NCBI GenBank assembly: GCA_023267755.1
Contig: JAHFMR010000006.1
Span: forward strand, 1 to 41,270
Direction: 5' to 3'
Length of the DNA stretch: 41,270 nucleotides
Origin: a bacterium
Lineage (GTDB): Bacteria; Patescibacteriota; Minisyncoccia; Phycocordibacterales; Phycocordibacteraceae
Shown here: piece after piece, positions 1,645-38,536 of the stretch
Layout of the letters: every line of letters begins with the position of its first letter
Numbering within the stretch: the first letter of the stretch is position 1
The notes under the pieces: model-generated
The model's input: only the letters and a program-made list of their open reading frames with translations
Told to the model about the DNA's origin: nothing
Database searches by the model: none
Made by a program: the position numbers and the translations under genes

Positions 1645-4242
1645 CTAGGGGAAGACGAGATGGTAGGCCTTCACAATCAGACTTCTTAAGAAACCGAGGA
1701 AAGATTGCGAGGACTGCGCGTTGGCAACGGCGGCTGTCCCATTGGTAAGGTCGACAAACCCTGGCACGGTACCCACTCCTGATGACGGCGCGACCGAAGC
1801 GCCCGGCTTCTTCTTGCCAATTATTGCCGGAGTCTTTGTGCGCGCAGGAGTGGTGGTCGAGACGACAGGGCTGTGGATAACCGCCGAAATGCTCAAGATG
1901 CTCCCCGACGAAGTCGCATTTGTTGGCAAAAGCGATGCGAACCAGCCGATTGACCCGTTGTTGACTACGGCACCCCCTGCCCCGCTGCCTCCCGCTCCTG
2001 CTCCGCCGCCCGGAGCCACTGGAAGAGCTGCGACAGTTACTGGCGTTGAGAAGGTGGACACGAGACCGAAGGAGTCGGTGAGAGTGAGCGTCACGGTGTA
2101 AGTGCCCGCAGCAGCGTAGGTGTGTGCGGGAGTATCACCGATGAGCGCCACGGTCGTCGTCGCTCCCGAGCCATCGCCGAAGTTCCAGGTGTAGTTCCAC
2201 GAGTCGCCAAGTGTCCCTCCGCTGTTAGCATCACTGCTCGCATCAGTAATCGTGACAGCAAGCCCGGCGGCAGTGGTTGAGAAAGACGCGATGGGCGGAT
2301 AGTTAAGAAGATTGGCGAGCGGCGTCGAGGTCGCGATGATGATAGGTGCGCCTCCACCAACCGGGATGATAGAGCCCGAGAGGATGACGTTGTTCACCAC
2401 AACCGCGTTGATGAGAGTCGTATTAGATAGTGTCGAATTGGTCACGCTGGAGTTCGTGAGAAGTACGTTCGTGAGTGTCGAGGAAGCGATGTCCCACCAC
2501 GTGGAGAGCGTTGAGCCGGTGATAGTCGAGCCAGTTGTTGAAGCGGCCACAGCCTGAGCGAGCGTCGGAGAGAACACGCCGTAGTAGGTGCCGCCGATGG
2601 TCGAATTGGTGTAAAGCACGTTTGAATCAGAAAGGATGATTGGGCCGTAGACTGCCGATGGCGAAACGCTACCGGAAGTGTCGACTGAGCGCACGTGGAA
2701 GTAGTAGGTGTTGTACGGGAGGACAGCGAAGGTCGTCGATGTTGCCGCAGTATTTATCACCACACCTGGGACTGTGGTACTTGCCGAATCGAGGAGGAAT
2801 GCGTATCCGCCGATGCCGGGTCCGCCCACGTCAGTAGCGTCTGCCCACTGGATAGTCGCTGACGTGAGCGGCGAGATAGTCCCCGCGACAGGATTGGCCG
2901 AGACGAATACTGGTGTTGAAGGGAGCACTACTGGCAGCACTGCGCCCTGCACCGAGAACTGCGCATCAATCGTGTGGGCGGCGGCAATGGCGGCAAAGGT
3001 ATAGGTGGTGGAGGTGGCGATGGCAGTGCCGTCGATGGTAAGGGAGGCAATGTCATAGCCTGCTGCTGGGGTGATGGTGTACGTCTGCGAGGCGCCAGAG
3101 GCAACGGTGGTGGTGCCGAGCGGAGTCACCGATCCGTTGGTGCCGCTGGTGGCCACCAGGGCAAAGGTGACTGGTGGCGGGACGATAGCGGCATTGAAGA
3201 CCGCCACCGCTGCGGTGAGCGTCACCACCTCAGCATCTATCGTCGTTTGCGGCGAAGAGGTTGTAAGTGCGAGCGCGATATTGACTGCGTTTGTAAGCGT
3301 CGCACTCGAACCGACAATATGATTGCCCGGCACCACTCCTTCGACAACCCCTACAAGCGCCGCGTTTGCGATACCGATCTCGGCGTTGAGCGTTGTGAGA
3401 TTAGACGGGGGGACGACTGCGGCGTTGAAGGCGGCGAGAGCCGCAGCGAGTGTCGCGGCGGCTGTGTTGACCGTCAACTGTGGCTGAGCGCCCGTCACCG
3501 CCTGTGCGACCGCTATCGCGGTCGCGAGCGTCGCACTCGAACCAACGAGATGGTTTCCTGGCGTCGCTCCCTCGACAACGCCAACGAGCGCCGTGTTCGC
3601 AAGGATGACCTCAGTAGCGAGTACCGATGTGTCTGACAACGGAACAATTGCTGCGTTGAAGGCGGCGATTGCGTTGCTGAGCATCGTCGTTGCGGCATCG
3701 ATCGATGCCTGATCATTGTTCGCGCTCAGCGCACTTGCTGCTGCGATTGCTGCGGCGAGCACTGCTGAAGAACCGATTGTGTGTTGGCCAGGCGTCGTTC
3801 CTTCGGTCGAGCTCGCAAGCGTTGTGTTCGCGGCAGTGATTTCAGCGTTAAGCGCGAGAACATTTGATGGCGAAACAATCGACGCGTTGAAGGCCGCGAG
3901 GGCATCCATAAGCGCTGTCGTCGCCGAATTAACAGCCGACTGATCCCCGCTGCTCATCGCCGCATTTGCCGCCGTGATAGCGGCATTAAGCGCCGCTATC
4001 GAACCGGGTGTGTGTTGTCCCGGCAATGTCCCCTCAGTAACACCAACCAAAGCCGCAGTCGCAATCCCTATCTGCGAGTTAAGCGCTGTGTGATTTGCCG
4101 GCACCACGAGAATGATGATCGGCGGAGGTGGCGGCGGGGCGAACTGTGCCCGCGCGAACCCTGGTGCGGCAAGGAGAAAAAGCACCAGTACCGGCGCTAT
4201 CGCGACTGTATATGCTGCTTTCTTCAGGCCTGCACCCGTCAT
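1645..4242 (-). CDS. Large secreted surface protein: signal peptide, four ~77-aa FIVAR-like repeats, InlB-B-like repeat, FN3-like region, PKD domain
   Basis: 865 aa; repeats of the form LNAEI..AN.ALVGVVEG..PGNH.VGSSATL..A...FNAAIV; GSVTPLGTTTVASGASQTYTITPAAGYDIASLTIDG; PKD-like SWNYTWNFGDGSGATTT...AHTYAAAGTYTVTLTLTD. Confidence 0.75.
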   Translation of the reverse strand: MTGAGLKKAAYTVAIAPVLVLFLLAAPGFARAQFAPPPPPPIIILVVPANHTALNSQIGIATAALVGVTEGTLPGQHTPGSIAALNAAITAANAAMSSGDQSAVNSATTALMDALAAFNASIVSPSNVLALNAEITAANTTLASSTEGTTPGQHTIGSSAVLAAAIAAASALSANNDQASIDAATTMLSNAIAAFNAAIVPLSDTSVLATEVILANTALVGVVEGATPGNHLVGSSATLATAIAVAQAVTGAQPQLTVNTAAATLAAALAAFNAAVVPPSNLTTLNAEIGIANAALVGVVEGVVPGNHIVGSSATLTNAVNIALALTTSSPQTTIDAEVVTLTAAVAVFNAAIVPPPVTFALVATSGTNGSVTPLGTTTVASGASQTYTITPAAGYDIASLTIDGTAIATSTTYTFAAIAAAHTIDAQFSVQGAVLPVVLPSTPVFVSANPVAGTISPLTSATIQWADATDVGGPGIGGYAFLLDSASTTVPGVVINTAATSTTFAVLPYNTYYFHVRSVDTSGSVSPSAVYGPIILSDSNVLYTNSTIGGTYYGVFSPTLAQAVAASTTGSTITGSTLSTWWDIASSTLTNVLLTNSSVTNSTLSNTTLINAVVVNNVILSGSIIPVGGGAPIIIATSTPLANLLNYPPIASFSTTAAGLAVTITDASSDANSGGTLGDSWNYTWNFGDGSGATTTVALIGDTPAHTYAAAGTYTVTLTLTDSFGLVSTFSTPVTVAALPVAPGGGAGAGGSGAGGAVVNNGSIGWFASLLPTNATSSGSILSISAVIHSPVVSTTTPARTKTPAIIGKKKPGASVAPSSGVGTVPGFVDLTNGTAAVANAQSSQSFLGFLRSLIVKAYHLVFP
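3181..4101 (-). repeat. Four tandem ~77-aa coding repeats (FIVAR-like) in the surface protein
   Basis: Each unit holds xLNAEI..AN..L...EG..PG.H..GS...L..A...A and ends AxAAFNAxIV. Confidence 0.75.
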
Positions 4243-10409: not shown

Positions 10410-11267
10410 ATGGAGATTCGAGAACTCGCGCGAGAGGAGTGGCCGGAACAACTGCTCGAGATACCCCAGATACCGGAGCGTCTGTGGACGCGCGGTACGC
10501 TCCCGCCGCCCGGGACAAAATTGCTCACCGTGGTGGGCAGTCGCGCGATGACGCGCTATGCCGAGGAGGCGTGTCAGAAGCTGATTAGCGGGCTCGCGGG
10601 CTATCCTATCTCTATCGTCTCCGGACTCGCACTCGGCATCGACACCTGTGCACACAAGGCCGCACTCGCCGCCGGGCTCCATACGCTCGTCGTCCCCGGC
10701 TCGGGCCTCGGCGACGAAGTGCTCTATCCGAGAAGCAATCGCACATTCGCTAAAGAGATTCTCGCGAAGGGCGGTGGATTCATTTCTGAATATCCGCCCG
10801 ACGAACCTTCGCGGGTCTATTACTTCCCCGAACGGAATCGGATTATGGTCGGCCTCTCAGACGCCGTGCTTCTGATTGAGGCGGGACAAAAGTCGGGAAC
10901 GCTTATCACCGCACGTCTCGCGAGCGAGTATAATCGCGAGCTCCTCTGTATTCCCCATCGCATCGGTGATCCGCACGCCTTCGGCGGACATCTCTTCCTC
11001 CGGCTCGGCGCGACGCTCGTCACCGAACCGCTCCACATCCTCGAGGCGCTTAAGATACCGCCGCGCGAGGGAGCCGCGCGAGGCGAGGCACCGCGCGACC
11101 TCGAAGAAGCCGAGCTAGTTATCTGGAATATGCTCGCCGAGCCCCAGCCACGCGATGAACTCTTGCGCAGCACGAAGCTGCCCGTGGGCGAAGCCTTGAC
11201 CGCACTTGTCGCGCTTGAGCTACGCGGACTCATTAAAGAAGAGTTTGGTGCGTGGCGTCGTATTTAG
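10410..11267 (+). CDS. dprA: DNA processing protein DprA
   Basis: LTVVGSRAMTRYAEEACQKLISGLAGYPISIVSGLALGIDTCAHKAAL; GGGFISEYPPDEPSRVYYFPERNRIMVGLSDAVLLIEAGQKSGTLITARLASEYNRELLCIPH. Confidence 0.95.
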   Translation: MEIRELAREEWPEQLLEIPQIPERLWTRGTLPPPGTKLLTVVGSRAMTRYAEEACQKLISGLAGYPISIVSGLALGIDTCAHKAALAAGLHTLVVPGSGLGDEVLYPRSNRTFAKEILAKGGGFISEYPPDEPSRVYYFPERNRIMVGLSDAVLLIEAGQKSGTLITARLASEYNRELLCIPHRIGDPHAFGGHLFLRLGATLVTEPLHILEALKIPPREGAARGEAPRDLEEAELVIWNMLAEPQPRDELLRSTKLPVGEALTALVALELRGLIKEEFGAWRRI

Positions 11268-11292
11268 TTCGACTGTGTTCATCACAAGTAAT

Positions 11293-12063
11293 ATGAAAAT
11301 CTATTCCTGGAATATGCTGTACCGCAATAAGCGCCTCGATGAGGCCTTTACCTTTGTATCGAAGTCAGACTTCGATATTTTCTGTCTCCAAGAAGTGCCG
11401 GTTGAGTTCCTTGCACGCTTACGCACGCTCCCCTTCCATCTGGCAGAGACGATTGACGTCGAACGATTGCTCGGTGAAGTGAAGCGCAATCATCTTGTCA
11501 TTCTCTCTCGCAATGCTATCAAGAATCAAAGCGTCATCCCATTTCCTAATTATTGGCCGCTCTTACCGTGGCGCACCCACCTGTTCGTGCGTAGTATGCG
11601 ACCGTGGTTCTGGTCAAAGATTCAGAACCGCAGCGCGCTTTATGTAGATAGTATGGTCGGCGAGAGACTGGTGCGCGTGTTCAATTTACACACCGCCATC
11701 ACCCGAGTAGACTGGCGCATCCGCGAGTTCGAACAAACAATGGCCGAGCGCGACCCGACACTACCGACGATTGTCTGCGGTGACTTCAACGTGATGGAAT
11801 CTCCGAAAGTGTCGATATTGAATTGGCTCGTCGGCGGAAAGATAGGCGATGCGCTACGCTTTACGCGCGAGCGAACGCGTCTCGAGAAGCATTTTGTCGA
11901 ACACGAGCTGATGAATCCGCTTCGCGGAGTAACGACCCATCCCTTCTCGCGGAGTCAGCTCGACCACATCCTCGTCTCCAACTCTTTCTCAATACAAAAC
12001 GCCCTTGTCCTCAACGACCGCCACGGCTCTGACCATCATCCTATTTCTGTCGAAATCTTATAG
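11293..12063 (+). CDS. Endonuclease/exonuclease/phosphatase family protein
   Basis: MKIYSWNMLYRN, FDIFCLQEV, TIVCGDFNVMESP, SQLDHILVSN, GSDHHPISVEI. Confidence 0.9.
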   Translation: MKIYSWNMLYRNKRLDEAFTFVSKSDFDIFCLQEVPVEFLARLRTLPFHLAETIDVERLLGEVKRNHLVILSRNAIKNQSVIPFPNYWPLLPWRTHLFVRSMRPWFWSKIQNRSALYVDSMVGERLVRVFNLHTAITRVDWRIREFEQTMAERDPTLPTIVCGDFNVMESPKVSILNWLVGGKIGDALRFTRERTRLEKHFVEHELMNPLRGVTTHPFSRSQLDHILVSNSFSIQNALVLNDRHGSDHHPISVEIL

Positions 12064-12106: not shown

Positions 12107-14536
12107 ATGAGTAACCGCTTACTTATCGTCGAGTCGCCCACCAAGGCGCGTACCATTGGCAATTATTTAGGCAAGGGCTATACGGTCCTCGCCTCGGTGG
12201 GCCACGTGCGCGACCTCCCCAAAACGAATAAAGACGCGGTAGATATTGAGGGCGGCTTTATCCCACGCTACGTAATCCCCGCCGAGAAGCGTGAGATAAT
12301 CGAGAAGATCCAGCATGCCGCCGCCAAGGCCGACGAGATCTATCTCGCGACCGACCCCGATCGCGAAGGCGAGGCTATCGCCTGGCACATTAAGGAGGTC
12401 GCCAAGCTGAAGAAGCCTAAGCGCGTCGCCTTCCACGAAATAACCAAGGCTGCTATCGAAGAGGCGCTTGCCCACCCGCGCACTATCGATGAACACTTGC
12501 GCGAGGCGCAAGAGGCACGGCGCGTACTCGATCGCATCGTCGGCTACGACCTCTCCGGTCTCATCTGGAAGAAGGTCCGCTACGGTCTCTCGGCCGGCCG
12601 CGTACAGAGCCCCGCGCTCCGCATCCTCGCTGAGCGCGAGCGCGAGATTAAAGCATTCATCCCGGTAACCTATTTCGTATTGAGCGCGCTCTTCCGCTCC
12701 AAGACCGGCGACCTCGCGACGACCTGTACCGAAGAGCCTAAGACGCGCGAGGAGGCCGATCGAATCGTAAACACGGGTCGAAGCGCCGCATGGAGCGTAG
12801 CCGATATAAACGAGCGCGCCGAAGAGCGTAACCCGCGACCGCCCTTCACCACCTCGACCCTCCAACAGACTGCGTCGACCCGGCTCGGCTTCGCCCCCTC
12901 ACGCACGATGCGTGCTGCGCAGAAGCTCTACGAGGCCGGTCATATCACCTATATGCGTACCGACTCGGTAAATCTTGGTGCAGAGGCTGTCGCGAAGATG
13001 GCGAGCGTTGTCGAGAAACAATTCGGCAAGGACTATGTGCAGGTGCGCGTCTATAAAACGACAAGTAAGAATGCGCAGGAAGCGCACGAAGCTGTCCGCC
13101 CCACCGACCCTTCTCACGAGCGCGCGGGCGCGACATCCGACGAGGTGGAGCTCTACGCGCTTATTCGCACTCGTGCGCTCGCCTCGCAGATGGCCGCTGC
13201 CAAGGTGATGCGCACGTCGGTGAGTGCGAAGGCCGACAAGGCAGATATTCCGTTCTTCACCGCGAACGGTTCGCGCACTCTCTTTCCTGGCTGGCTTGCG
13301 CTCGACACCGCTGCACGCGGTGAGGATGTCGAGCTCCCAAAGCTCGTTGTCGGCGACTCCCTCTCGCTCATCTCACTCGCAGCAGAGGAGAAGCAGACCG
13401 AGCCGCCAAATCGCTACACCGAAGCAGGGCTTATCAAGGAGCTGGAGAAACGTGGTATCGGCCGCCCTTCGACCTACGCGTCTATTATGAAGACGATTCA
13501 GGATCGCGGCTATGTAGAAAAGCTCGGCCGCGCACTGAAGCCCACTGCCACCGGTATGGTCGTCTCGGGCTGGCTCGAGGAACACTTCCCGCAGTACGTG
13601 AGCGACACCTTCACCGCCGAGATGGAGAACGAGCTCGATGAGATAGCACGCGGCGAGCGTGGCTACACACAAACACTGCAGGAATTTTATGGCCCCTTTG
13701 AGAAGGCGGTGCGTGCTAAGGATAAATTGCCTAAGGCCACATCGCTCGGCGATGTGCCAAGCGAATTCCCCTGCCCGCTGTGCGGCAGCCCGATGGAGTT
13801 TAAGCTCGGTCGTGGCGGTGTCTTTATGAGCTGTAAGAAGTATCCCGAATGCCTGGGCGCCCGCACCGAAGAAGGACTCGAGCTTAAGGGTGATGAGCCG
13901 ATCGGTGTGCACCCAGAAACTGGCGCACCTATTTATATAAAGACCGGAAGATTCGGCCCGTATGTTGAAATGGCTCTCCCAGAACCCGAATCAAGGTTCG
14001 ACCTTAAATCCGAATCCTCAAGGTCGAACCTTGATTCGGATGAAAAAGAATCGAAGAAGAAAACGCCGGCCAAACGTGGTAAGGGTCGCCCCAAAACGGC
14101 CGCCAAGCGCGCGAGCATCCCTGCCGGCACCGATCTTGCGGGTGTTACACTCGCCGATGCAGTGCGCTATCTCTCGCTCCCGCGCGAGCTGGGGATGCAC
14201 CCGAGTACCGGCAAACCCGTCTTCGCCTCAACCGGACGATTCGGTCCGTATGTCGGCAGCGACGGTGAGTTCCGCTCGCTCAAGGCCGCGGTCGGCGAAC
14301 CCTACACTATCACCCTCGACCAAGCACTCACGCTCCTCGCTGAGCCGAAGAAGCCGCCGAAGGGTGTTGAGATTGTACGAGAGATTGGCAAGCACCCGAA
14401 GACCGGCAAGGTCATCTCACTCTACAAGTCGAAGCAGGGTTACTTCCTCAAGAAAGGTCTCCGTCGTATTTATCTCCCTGATTCCGTCGCTCCCGACGCG
14501 CTCACTCCCCCAGAAGCAGCTGAATATTTGAAATAA
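12107..14536 (+). CDS. topA: DNA topoisomerase I
   Basis: LLIVESPTKARTIGNYLGKGYTVLASVGHVRDLP; DREGEAIAWHIKE; ITYMRTDSVNLG; CPLCGSPMEFKLGRGGVFMSCKKYPEC; C-terminal repeat modules. Confidence 0.98.
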   Translation: MSNRLLIVESPTKARTIGNYLGKGYTVLASVGHVRDLPKTNKDAVDIEGGFIPRYVIPAEKREIIEKIQHAAAKADEIYLATDPDREGEAIAWHIKEVAKLKKPKRVAFHEITKAAIEEALAHPRTIDEHLREAQEARRVLDRIVGYDLSGLIWKKVRYGLSAGRVQSPALRILAEREREIKAFIPVTYFVLSALFRSKTGDLATTCTEEPKTREEADRIVNTGRSAAWSVADINERAEERNPRPPFTTSTLQQTASTRLGFAPSRTMRAAQKLYEAGHITYMRTDSVNLGAEAVAKMASVVEKQFGKDYVQVRVYKTTSKNAQEAHEAVRPTDPSHERAGATSDEVELYALIRTRALASQMAAAKVMRTSVSAKADKADIPFFTANGSRTLFPGWLALDTAARGEDVELPKLVVGDSLSLISLAAEEKQTEPPNRYTEAGLIKELEKRGIGRPSTYASIMKTIQDRGYVEKLGRALKPTATGMVVSGWLEEHFPQYVSDTFTAEMENELDEIARGERGYTQTLQEFYGPFEKAVRAKDKLPKATSLGDVPSEFPCPLCGSPMEFKLGRGGVFMSCKKYPECLGARTEEGLELKGDEPIGVHPETGAPIYIKTGRFGPYVEMALPEPESRFDLKSESSRSNLDSDEKESKKKTPAKRGKGRPKTAAKRASIPAGTDLAGVTLADAVRYLSLPRELGMHPSTGKPVFASTGRFGPYVGSDGEFRSLKAAVGEPYTITLDQALTLLAEPKKPPKGVEIVREIGKHPKTGKVISLYKSKQGYFLKKGLRRIYLPDSVAPDALTPPEAAEYLK
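13986..14039. repeat. In-frame palindromic element in topA: 20-bp perfect arms, 14-nt spacer
   Basis: ccgaatcaaggttcgacctt - aaatccgaatcctc - aaggtcgaaccttgattcgg; each arm is itself a mini-hairpin (AAGGT-NNN-ACCTT). Confidence 0.92.
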
Positions 14537-18017: not shown

Positions 18018-18890
18018 ATGTTGAAAATCTTGTGCATCGCAGGGCCGACCGCCTCAGGCAAGTCAAGTCGAGCTGTCGAAGAAGCGCTCGCGCGTGATGG
18101 TGAGGTTATTTCTATCGACTCACGTCAGGTCTATCGCGGGCTCGATATCGGGACCGAGAAGATATCGGCTACCGAAATGCGCGGCGTGCCGCACCATCTA
18201 ATAGATATCCGCAATCCCGAGGAGAATTATTCTGCCGGCGACTTTGTCACCGATGCAATACGCTTGATTGAAGAAATCACAGCGCGTGGGAACCTGCCGA
18301 TACTTGTCGGCGGGACGCACTTCTACTTCGATGCGCTTCTTAACGGCCTCCCAATCGGTGTCGACGCCAATCCGCAGCTGCGTGAAGAGCTCGAGCAGCT
18401 CTCGACCGAGGAGCTGTATGCGCGCGTCCGCCAAGCGGACGCGCGCCGTGCCGCAGAGCTGGACCCGCAGAACCGTCGCCGACTTATCCGCGCGCTCGAG
18501 ATTATCGCCTCCCTTGGGCACGTTCCACTCCGACACGAGGGGCACCCTCGTGCTGCACGAGGGTGCCCCTCGTGGGAGGTCGAGTGGATAGTGATTGACC
18601 CGTCGCGTGAAGAGCTGCGAGAGAGAATTAACACACGTCTCGCCACCGCCTTTAAGCGTGACCTCATCGAGGAGGTGCGCCAGGTGCGTACCCGTGTCGG
18701 CGATACGCGCCTTAACGAGCTTGGGCTCGAATATAGAATAGTCGGCGAGTACGTGTCCTCCTCCGCTGAAGCTACGGAGGACACGGCGCGTATCCAAGAA
18801 AAATTATTGCCGGTTCTATCGGCGAAGCTTTGGCAGTATGCCCGCCGCCAGAAAGCCTGGCTCCGCAAGCTTGGCCACTCGGCGTCCTAA
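18018..18890 (+). CDS. miaA: tRNA dimethylallyltransferase
   Basis: IAGPTASGKSSRAVEEAL, VISIDSRQVYRGLDIGTEK, GVPHHLIDIRNPEENYSAGDF, LPILVGGTHFYFDALLNGLP. Confidence 0.96.
   Translation: MLKILCIAGPTASGKSSRAVEEALARDGEVISIDSRQVYRGLDIGTEKISATEMRGVPHHLIDIRNPEENYSAGDFVTDAIRLIEEITARGNLPILVGGTHFYFDALLNGLPIGVDANPQLREELEQLSTEELYARVRQADARRAAELDPQNRRRLIRALEIIASLGHVPLRHEGHPRAARGCPSWEVEWIVIDPSREELRERINTRLATAFKRDLIEEVRQVRTRVGDTRLNELGLEYRIVGEYVSSSAEATEDTARIQEKLLPVLSAKLWQYARRQKAWLRKLGHSAS
18420..18446. repeat. In-frame palindrome 1 in miaA, 12-bp perfect arms
   Basis: gcgcgcgtccgc-caa-gcggacgcgcgc. Confidence 0.85.
18534..18574. repeat. In-frame palindromic element 2 in miaA, 20-bp perfect arms, 1-nt centre
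   Basis: cacgaggggcaccctcgtgc-t-gcacgagggtgcccctcgtg; each arm holds a mini-hairpin CACGAGG-GGCAC-CCTCGTG. Confidence 0.95.
18752..18785. repeat. In-frame palindrome 3 in miaA, 10-bp perfect outer arms
   Basis: cgtgtcctcc-tccgctgaagctac-ggaggacacg, encoding SSSAEATEDT. Confidence 0.85.
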
Positions 18891-35133: not shown

Positions 35134-35152
35134 TACAAGGTTCAACCTTGTA
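35134..35152. repeat. RAYT-associated palindrome copy 1 (upstream)
   Basis: tacaaggtt-c-aaccttgta, 9-bp perfect arms. Confidence 0.9.
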
Positions 35153-35180: not shown

Positions 35181-35840
35181 ATGGCACGCACTTTTTCATT
35201 CGCTCCCGGTGAGTTTTATCACTTGTATAATCGCGGCACAGAAAAGCGGAATATATTCACTTCTAAAGCAGACCGCGACCGGTTCCTTACGCTTCTCTAC
35301 CTAGCAAACCAAGACATTCCCGCTGACTTAAAATTACAAGGTTCAACCTTGTTAGAGATAGTGAAACCAAAAGCGGGAGCTCCGCTTGTCGAGATCGTCT
35401 GTTATTGCCTCATGCCGAATCATTTCCACTTACTAGTACGCGAATTAGAAGACGGTGGGATTAGTAAATTTATGCAAAAAATTACGACTGGATACACGAT
35501 GTATTTCAATAAACGCTCCGACCGGAATGGCGCTCTCTTCCAAGGAAGATTTAAAGCGACTCACGTAGCTGATGATCGATACCTGCGCTACCTCATCTCA
35601 TACATTCATCTAAACCCTGTAAAACTTATCGAACCAAAGTGGAAAGAGACGGGTATTGCCAATCAAGTACACGCCGAGCGCTACCTCGAGACATATACTG
35701 CTTCAAGTTATCCCGATTATCTAGGTAAAAAACGCGCTGAAGGAATGATTCTTACTAAAGAAGCTCTGCCCGAATATTTCTCCTCTGGCTCCGACTTCAA
35801 AACCTTCGTCACAGAATGGCTTACCTATAAGTCCGATTAG
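35181..35840 (+). CDS. REP-associated tyrosine transposase (RAYT; Y1/IS200-like HUH transposase)
   Basis: FYHLYNRGTEKRNIF; HUH motif LMPNHFHLLV; catalytic Tyr region KITTGYTMYFNKR; FQGRFKATHV...YLRYLISYIHLNPVK. Confidence 0.93.
   Translation: MARTFSFAPGEFYHLYNRGTEKRNIFTSKADRDRFLTLLYLANQDIPADLKLQGSTLLEIVKPKAGAPLVEIVCYCLMPNHFHLLVRELEDGGISKFMQKITTGYTMYFNKRSDRNGALFQGRFKATHVADDRYLRYLISYIHLNPVKLIEPKWKETGIANQVHAERYLETYTASSYPDYLGKKRAEGMILTKEALPEYFSSGSDFKTFVTEWLTYKSD
35336..35352. repeat. RAYT-associated palindrome copy 2 (inside the transposase gene)
   Basis: acaaggtt-c-aaccttgt, 8-bp perfect arms, encoding LQGSTLL just upstream of the HUH motif. Confidence 0.9.
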
Positions 35841-35861
35841 TACAAGGTTCAACCTTGTACT
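35839..35861. repeat. RAYT-associated palindrome copy 3 (overlaps the transposase stop codon)
   Basis: agtacaaggtt-c-aaccttgtact, 11-bp perfect arms. Confidence 0.92.
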
Positions 35862-36040: not shown

Positions 36041-38536
36041 CTACAACGCGGCCATCGAGGCAATCGAGTCGCCCTCGCGCATCTTCATCACGCGGACGCC
36101 CTGGGTGGCGCGCGAGAGCTGAGAGATGCTCTCGATCGAGGTGCGGATTACCTGCCCCTTCTTAGAGACAACAACTATCTCCTCGCCCTCTTGGCTATCA
36201 GTGACCACCTTGGCGCCGATAATCTCGCCGGTCTTGCTGGTCACCTCGGCAGTCTTAATCCCCGAGCCGCCACGGCCCTGCACCTTATATTCGCTCATCT
36301 TGGTGCGCTTGCCGTAACCCTTACTCATAATCACGAGGAGCGAGGCGTCCTTGGCGGCAAGCACGGGAATCACCTCCGCCGAGACAACACGATCACCCTT
36401 CTTCACTGTCATCCCCTTCACGCCGCCGGCGGTGCGACCCATCTCGCGCGCGTCCTCGACGTCGAAGCGGATCGACTGCCCCTTTGCGGTAACGATTGAG
36501 ACCGTGTCGCCTTCTGACGAGTGATTCGCCGAGACGAGCTTATCGCCTTTCTTAAGATTAATCGCGATGATGCCCGAGCGGCGAACATCGGCGAAGCTCT
36601 TAGCCGCCACACGCTTCACCACACCCTGTTCGGTGACGAAGGCCACCGAGGCCGCCTCGAGCGCTGCGCCCTTGGGCACCGGCAGTATCGAGGTCACCTT
36701 CTCTTCGCCGGCGAGCGAGAGGAAATTCATAATGCTCTTGCCCTTAGTGGCGCGCCGCCCCTCGGGAATCTCGTACATCTTGAGCTGATACGCCTTGCCG
36801 AGATCGGTGAAGAAAAGGAGATCGCTGTGCGCGGAGGCGACGACGAAATGCGTCACTATGTCTTCTTCCTTGGTCGCGATATCGACAACACCCACGCCTC
36901 CGCGCTTCTGACTCTTGTACTCGCTCGGATTGGTGCGCTTCACGTAGCCGCCCGCGGTGAGCACCAGGACAGAGTCTTCATCGGGGACGAGGTCCTCGAC
37001 CGAGATGTTCTGCACGCCGCCACGGACCACTCGTGTGCGGCGATCATCGCCATACTTCTCACCGAGCTCTTGGAGTTCCTTCTTCACCACCGCGAGAATC
37101 TTCTTAGGGGAGGAGAGGATATCCTTCAGCTTCTTGATAAGCGCCTGCACTTCAGCGAGCTCGTCTTCAAGCTTCTTACGTTCGAGACCGGCGAGCTTGG
37201 AGAGACGCATCTCGAGAATAGCGGCCGCCTGCAGTATGGAAAAACCGAACTTCTTCTGGAGCGCGAGGCTCGCCGATGGCACGTCAGCCGCCTTTTTGAT
37301 GATAGCGATAACCTCGTCGATATGGTCGAGCGCCTTGCAGAGCCCGAAGAGAATATGCTCGCGTGCCTCGGCCTGGCGGAGGTCGTACTCGGTGCGACGC
37401 TTCACCACCTCCTGGCGGTGACTGACGAAGTTCTCGAGCATCCCTGCAAGCGAGAGCATCTCGGGAACGCCGTCCACCAGCGCGAGCATATTGTAGTGGA
37501 AGGTGCTCTCGAGCTCGGTGTGCTTGTAGAGCGCGTTCAATACCGCCTGTGGATGCGCCGTTCCCTTAAGCTCCACCACAATGCGGACGTCCGGCCGGCC
37601 GTTGGCGTCGCCCGCAGACTCGTCGCGCAAGTCACGGATGCCCTCGAGCTTCTTGTCCTGTACGAGCTCGGCGATACGGACGATAAGCTCGCTCTTGTTC
37701 ACGCGGTATGGAATCGAGGTGATGATAATCTTGGTATCTTTCTTCCCATCATCAACAATCTCCGCCTCCCCGCGCACCACGACTGGCCCCTTGCCGCTGC
37801 CGTATGCGTGCTTGATATCCGCCTGATTGAAAGCGATGCCGCCCATCGGGAAGTCGGGCCCCTTCACGAACTGGAGCAGGTCGTCGGTGGTCGCGTCCGG
37901 ATTGTCGATAAGATGTACGGTGGCGTCTACCACCTCGCGCAGGTTGTGCGGCGGAATATTGGTCGCCATACCTACCGCGATACCAAGCGTCCCGTTGAGG
38001 AGGAGGTTCGGGAGTGCGGCCGGGAGCACCGTCGGCTCCTCGCGCGTGGCATCGTAGTTGGGCATCCACGCGACCGTCTCCTTCTCGAGATCAGAGAGGA
38101 GTGCATCGGCGAGACGCGACATCTTAGCCTCGGTGTAACGCATCGCCGCTGGCGAATCACCGTCGATAGAACCAAAGTTGCCCTGACCGAGCACGAGCGG
38201 ATAGCGGTAGGAGAACTCCTGCGCCATTTTTGCCATCGAGTCGTAGACGGCGATGTCCCCGTGCGGATGATACTTACCGAGCACGTCGCCCACCACGGTG
38301 GCCGACTTACGGAACTTCACATTCGGCGTGAGCCCCGCCTCCTTCATCGCGTAGAGGATGCGACGATGCACCGGCTTCAAGCCGTCGCGCACGTCCGGCA
38401 GGGCGCGCGCGGTGATTACGGTCATCGCGTAGTCGATATATGACTGCCGCATCTCGGCAACAATCGGCTGGATGATGACGTTCGCGGCGACAGGAGTCGC
38501 CGCGCCTTCTTCAATCTGTTCCTTACCGCGCGCCAT
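36041..38536 (-). CDS. gyrA: DNA gyrase subunit A
   Basis: [79 protein letters not shown]-like [22 protein letters not shown]. Confidence 0.97.

Follow-up and report, generated by a model that had tools for sequence, protein, structure and literature searches.

Palindromic inserts in miaA and other genes of Patescibacteria: a REPIN/RAYT-like and Rickettsia-palindrome-like system, plus an orphan hairpin element

Results and discussion

The miaA gene of a small patescibacterial genome contains three palindromes, and these are three different things. In the explanation that we hold to be probable, one of them (palindrome 2) was spread by a RAYT-type transposase and survives as a harmless insert in a protein loop, and the other two (palindromes 3 and 1) are separate phenomena. 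Our account draws on the sequences of the palindromes, their copy numbers, the geometry of their doublets, their recurrence in the same loops and their association with transposase genes. What emerges in these Patescibacteria is a system that resembles both REPINs with their RAYTs and the Rickettsia palindromes, accompanied by an orphan element.

The host genome comprises 583,495 bases in 21 contigs, and its closest named kin is Candidatus Kaiserbacteria. The window, meaning the whole stretch of DNA that was analysed (41,270 nucleotides), carries the following features.

13986..14039, + strand: doublet of another family (AAGGTTCGACCTT ... AAGGTCGAACCTT), 54 bp, in frame in topA (TIGR01051, 5.1e-200)
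18018..18890, + strand: miaA (tRNA dimethylallyltransferase, IPPT family), 290 aa, intact frame (Pfam IPPT, 3.7e-62)
18420..18446, + strand: palindrome 1, coding ARVRQADAR, a recurrent palindrome site with no indel in the MiaA alignment
18534..18574, + strand: palindrome 2, a REPIN-like inverted doublet CGAGGGGCACCCTCG / CGAGGGTGCCCCTCG with spacer TGCTGCA, in the MiaA loop after VPLRH
18756..18785, + strand: SSAEATED hairpin element (palindrome 3), ~30 bp, consensus ~CCC[T/G]CCTYCGCTRAAGCTWCGG[A/C]GGRCAAG
35134..35152, no strand: left palindrome of the window's Y1 gene, TACAAGGTTCAACCTTGTA
35181..35840, + strand: RAYT-like Y1/HUH transposase gene (Pfam Y1_Tnp, 3.8e-10; NCBIfam REP_Tyr_transpos, 1.2e-13, 51.2 bits)
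35839..35861, no strand: right palindrome of the window's Y1 gene, AGTACAAGGTTCAACCTTGTACT

An earlier note, made from the letters of this DNA, had described three palindromes within miaA, and all three are present: palindrome 1 at 18420-18431/18435-18446 (12-nt arms, loop of 3), palindrome 2 at 18534-18553/18555-18574 (20-nt arms, loop of 1) and palindrome 3 at 18752-18761/18776-18785 (10-nt arms, loop of 14). The peptides that it read from the first and third, ARVRQADAR and SSSAEATEDT, are also encoded as described. Its treatment of the three as a single class did not hold up, as they differ in kind.

An independent-base calculation predicts 1e-5 palindromes per genome with arms of at least 20 nt, and 0.06 per window with arms of at least 12 nt. 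Palindrome 3 alone is not significant, since 0.65 palindromes with 10-nt arms and a loop of at most 14 are expected per window; its significance comes from its recurrence and not from its arms alone. In 320,990 sampled bases of the host genome we found 42 palindromes (arms of at least 12, loop of at most 20), compared to one in a Markov shuffle. Some of the 42 are terminator-like, and many others belong to a few families. We defined five palindrome families in this genome by their cores, none of which matched the reversed, uncomplemented sequence. An identity as a terminator or known RNA was considered and rejected, with no Rfam match near its gathering score.

The palindrome 2 family

The unit of palindrome 2 is a 15-bp palindrome. 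Its core, CGAGGGKKSCCCTCG, has 15 exact copies in the host genome and another with one mismatch, and has no copies in the reversed control. Its copies pair up as inverted doublets, perfect in seven cases and degenerate in one (ligA). The spacers measure either 5-7 nt or 15-16 nt, a difference of roughly one turn of the helix. The outermost 2-3 bp vary among copies, yet are complementary in most of them.

Doublets are found in miaA, in genes that we take to be trmD and tsaD from their sequence motifs, in ligA, in one 290-codon frame and at one intergenic place, and five of the six dispersed loci lie within open frames of more than 200 codons. Depending on the frame, the copies encode HEGHPRAARGCPS, PRGTLV...HEGAPRD, SRGAPSSDEGAPRD or TRVPLV, and because different frames are used, the unit is DNA and not peptide. 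Two doublets, at 2923-2967 and 3637-3681, bracket a Y1 gene elsewhere in the host genome (G000:C5:3180-3410). This repeat family and its tie to transposase genes had escaped the earlier note. The relatives compared are ~60-90% identical in protein and offered no clean near-identical empty site for a target-site duplication of the kind that marks MITEs of DDE transposons. We think there is a good likelihood that palindrome 2 belongs with REPIN-like elements that are non-autonomous, and that a RAYT-type transposase most likely spread it in trans.

Transposase genes and their flanking palindromes

Matches to Y1_Tnp occur in 40 of 58 genus genomes, with at most 11 per genome. The Y1 gene in the window, which adjoins a presumed gyrA-like ORF (36041-38536), has its own palindrome family, AAGGTTCAACCTT, distinct from that of palindrome 2, and an internal copy of it at 35338. 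Among six Y1 proteins tested, the best NCBIfam family was REP_Tyr_transpos in every case, at 20.9-51.2 bits, all under the curated cut-off of 80, while Pfam Y1_Tnp matched five at E <= 0.001, four of them over its cut-off. H23, H92, N119 and Y150 are invariant, and H90 nearly so, in 17 aligned Y1 proteins (numbered by the window protein as aligned), and the proteins appear to combine the HxH motif and the one predicted catalytic tyrosine by which RAYTs are defined. A profile search of solved structures gave only weak matches to transposase chains (for example 2xm3, E 0.028), and a single-sequence structure model of the window transposase (pLDDT 35) was unusable.

To assess flanking sequences, we examined 61 Y1 loci, picked by genome out of a longer list. 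L180 was omitted from the transposase alignment, where its frame was wrong, and from the flanking-pair test but retained in the flank set of the cognate test described below; one of the 60 others lacked 420 bp on a side, leaving 59 genus loci. Matched palindromes are present on both flanks of 42 of these and absent from 17. For class loci from other genera the corresponding numbers are 15 and 7 of 22. Only one of 600 random control windows had such a pair. Of 10 loci that represent the highest-scoring Y1 matches, most of them full-length, one had it. Each Y1 gene tends to have its own palindrome, and some also have a copy inside the frame.

Recurrent inserts in protein loops

miaA relatives are present in 52 of 58 genus genomes. 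The MiaA set consists of 80 loci retained out of 98 relatives, with 30 further loci from genus genomes; L078 was left out as no MiaA frame was found, and the 80 sequences do not equal 80 species, in that L033 and L034 share one bin. The alignment varies in length at two sites, one following VPxR, where palindrome 2 is found, and one following GE[FY]L, where palindrome 3 is found. The 80 sequences contain 52 palindromes in miaA (arms of at least 10, loop of at most 14), compared to 2.3 expected from synonymous codon shuffling, and these are concentrated at sites 1, 2 and 3. An assembly fold-back artefact was ruled out by the many independent assemblies that have inserts at these loops.

Site 2 has a palindromic insert in 22 of the 80 sequences. 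These inserts represent 14 families, assigned by hand, and at least 20 changes on a poorly resolved MiaA gene tree. The sister of the host genome (L032) has a different palindrome family at this site. In an AlphaFold2 model of MiaA built with 41 sequences (mean pLDDT 85.8), site 2, with residues 175-177, is in the lowest-confidence internal loop and site 3 in the loop that joins helices 237-247 and 256-284, whereas palindrome 1 lies within helices 130-140 and 142-147. In trmD and tsaD, for each of which 30 loci were aligned, unrelated palindromes likewise share one loop. The simplest reading is that hot spots reflect the tolerance of protein loops and not the target specificity of one element. 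The earlier note had suggested an insertion hotspot or a gene tolerant of loops; this is borne out for palindromes 2 and 3, which are insertions at loops where different species have different palindromes, but not for palindrome 1, which is in a conserved helix without indels.

In a cognate test, palindromic inserts were compared with the flanks of Y1 genes. Inserts in miaA, trmD and tsaD were listed by hand and 25 were typed, of which 24 entered the test, as no Y1 locus was fetched for G008. Nine of the 24 have at least 15 nt in common with the flank of a Y1 gene in the same genome; G000 contributes three of these, all of one family. Counted as insert-by-Y1 pairs, 9 of 93 match within a genome, as against 4 of 1371 between genomes. 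Exact matches include those of inserts in miaA of G048 (22 nt), G024 (24 nt) and G002 (19 nt) and in tsaD of G024 and G015 (23 nt each). The other 15 inserts have no cognate Y1 gene among the fetched loci, and some of them were matched in another genome. These counts come from draft genomes and from samples of Y1 loci and inserts that were partly listed by hand.

These observations point to a single-strand-DNA (HUH, one-tyrosine) transposase of the RAYT type that would mobilize palindrome 2 in trans, and whose candidate gene lies elsewhere in the host genome, bracketed by copies of that palindrome. In Kaiserbacteria one genome can hold several such transposases, each paired with a palindrome of its own. 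Survivors would be in-frame insertions in disordered surface loops, with selection presumably retaining only the harmless ones, and this would be why miaA, trmD and tsaD gather unrelated palindromes at the same loops across species.

An alternative needs no transposition: template switching or the correction of quasi-palindromes would create the palindromes on the spot, and hot spots would simply be unconstrained loops. The complementary variation in the outer base pairs of palindrome 2 is compatible with this process, and palindrome 1, discussed below, suits it well. However, it does not readily produce one 15-bp core 15 times in a genome, including on both sides of a transposase gene, nor does it fit net insertions relative to relatives and cognates in the same genome. 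We therefore regard formation in place as improbable.

Alternatively, the hairpins could be RNA or DNA structures selected for regulation, mRNA stability or pauses in protein folding, and not selfish elements. Covariation in the stem of the SSAEATED element and the recurrent palindromes at site 1 would agree with such a role, but a mobile hairpin would be expected to show covariation as well. Moreover, sister species (L002 and L032) have unrelated families at one loop, many sequences have no hairpin there, and no Rfam family scored above its gathering score. Selected structure is likewise an improbable explanation, and transposition by a RAYT-type enzyme, followed by survival in loops, remains our preferred reading for palindrome 2.

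In L064 and L081, MiaA has one more palindromic site close to its N terminus, in the region of residue 26, with arms of 23-24 nt.

The SSAEATED hairpin element

The arms CGTGTCCTCC/GGAGGACACG of palindrome 3 belong to the miaA copy, and the conserved element corresponds to ~18756-18785. Around the core, the sequence is sharply conserved between positions of approximately -4 and +25. An exact pattern, allowing up to two mismatches, was found in 15 of 92 genus genomes, and a looser pattern in 154 of 383 class genomes and 101 of 379 phylum genomes (a sample that takes in the class), with no control matches in either search. The earlier note's impression that SSAEATED-type peptides recur in CPR proteins proved right: copies are in unrelated genes, where nearly identical DNA is usually read as S[SF]A[EK]A[TS]E[DG], and the peptide is not confined to one position in MiaA orthologs. 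Within the MiaA set, the element is common to 5 of 80 sequences, with 4 changes on the weakly resolved tree. By its sequence, palindrome 3 is a distinct orphan hairpin element, found phylum-wide in coding and non-coding DNA.

Open frames of at least 200 codons hold 28 of 42 copies, where the longest frame was taken (in L143 the true gene is probably another), and 20 of the 28 use the usual reading frame. The remaining eight use other frames, and the idea of a peptide-level module was rejected on that account. In the stem, positions -1 and 18 covary. Among 64 copies the pairs are T-A in 45, G-C in 9, T-C in 4, G-A in 1 and others in 5 (Fisher 5e-7 on the first four classes), where the search pattern left position -1 free and fixed position 18 to A apart from mismatches.

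In 12 element-rich genomes we checked 22 Y1 genes and found the element beside none of them, and a partnership with Y1 genes was rejected on these grounds. There is one weak match near the genus Y1 loci. We also rejected the possibility that the element is the end of a larger transposon, as close pairs in G139, G386 and G443 enclose ordinary-looking ORFs with no obvious transposase by eye.

Palindrome 3 might still be moved by a Y1 transposase that is unsampled or extinct. Its hairpin form, its low copy number and its presence at the insert loop of trmD (as HSAKATRD in G013) would fit such an origin. Set against these are its absence beside the Y1 genes just described and the element-rich genomes G414 and G443 (92 and 86% complete), which have no Y1 match, and we find this origin possible but rather doubtful. 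Somewhat less likely than not, in our view, is the idea that the element is mobile with conserved pairing and free of RAYTs, that it has seeded approximately the same octapeptide into unrelated essential proteins throughout the phylum, and that multiple RAYT-like palindrome systems independently re-use the same loops.

The core of the element is matched exactly by 35 stretches of IMG/VR viral contigs (L355-L389), which are perhaps from CPR phages or mis-sorted CPR DNA.

Palindrome 1

The region of palindrome 1 corresponds to an ungapped, conserved MiaA stretch, ELYARVxxxDxRRA. Judging from the alignment, palindrome 1 is ordinary conserved coding sequence and not an insertion. Perfect arms of at least 10 nt are nevertheless present at this place in 12 of 80 MiaA sequences, compared to a mean of 0.39 and a maximum of 3 when the codons of each gene were resampled 200 times within that gene. 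The carriers are scattered, requiring 12 changes for 12 carriers on the MiaA tree. CGC or CGG in the left arm partly tracks Ala or Pro on the right (16/11 versus 1/8, Fisher 0.02, a value that does not correct for the tree). Either repeated template switching or selection for a hairpin can account for this recurrence. Confinement to one place, the number of changes and the partial codon match all suit formation in place, and palindrome 1 may have been repeatedly perfected, probably via template switching within a quasi-palindrome.

Comparison with known systems

PMC3116915 describes REPINs as doublets of REPs in inverted orientation that are linked to RAYTs. The system described here is similar in its inverted palindrome doublets, family-specific Y1/HUH genes and several families per genome. 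It also has palindrome copies in frame inside the transposase gene, a feature that PMC6006769 attributes to RAYT subclass 2.4. Palindrome 2 shares with REPs and REPINs its dispersed copies, its inverted doublets and its position flanking a Y1 gene, but lacks the GT[AG]G foot and a mainly extragenic location. No GT[AG]G is visible at the feet of palindrome 2 copies, and it occurs within 6 nt of only 5 of 37 Y1 flanking pairs. Other differences are a low copy number (~15), doublets of ~39-52 bp, dispersed copies that are mainly intragenic where REPs are mainly extragenic, and transposases under the family cut-off. Because the foot is mostly absent, the copies are intragenic and the transposases are below cut-off, we use the term "REPIN-like" and not canonical REP.

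In TIRYTs, the inverted repeats on either side of the Y1 gene lack GTAG, and some of the repeats are self-complementary and form small families; PMC3733652 reports TIRYTs from Acidobacteria, Pseudomonas, Stenotrophomonas and others, with a GGGGWSAS motif. The Y1 genes here also have inverted-repeat flanks mostly without GT[AG]G, but their host phylum is Patescibacteria.

The classical examples of palindromes read in frame within protein genes are the Rickettsia palindromic elements, as PMC3733652 and PMC6649704 describe them. Our inserts resemble them in form and placement, being palindromic and in frame within protein genes; they differ in phylum and in that several families here have a candidate transposase. 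PMC3733652 also notes intragenic REPs, in genes for ligase, uvrA, tRNA synthetases and tRNA modification, and a recB site that has received one REP in one Xanthomonas species and a different REP in another. By comparison, a single loop here was hit by 14 hand-assigned families, in relatives that are nearly all of one genus.

We found no paper linking RAYTs or palindromic elements to Patescibacteria in the literature searched, whose scope excluded subscription journals and preprints. The analysis offers candidate transposases for intragenic palindromes of the type best known from Rickettsia, and it makes testable how single-strand transposases disperse repeats inside coding DNA. The inserts are natural insertion scans of protein loops, and account for lineage-specific CPR peptide insertions that could otherwise be mistaken for domains. 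Although genomes of Patescibacteria are very small, several palindrome families are found in topA, dnaG, uvrA, leuS, ligA, miaA, trmD and tsaD.

Other palindromes were encountered in the window and in related loci. The core family of the topA doublet is also in dnaG (L112) and in uvrA (L128), and the latter gene has two palindromic doublets of two families, at 1274-1327 and 1848-1898. A palindrome TATCGAAGTCAGACTTCGATA at 11357-11377 lies in a 285-aa ORF (11206-12063) and belongs to the family that flanks the Y1 gene of contig C2.
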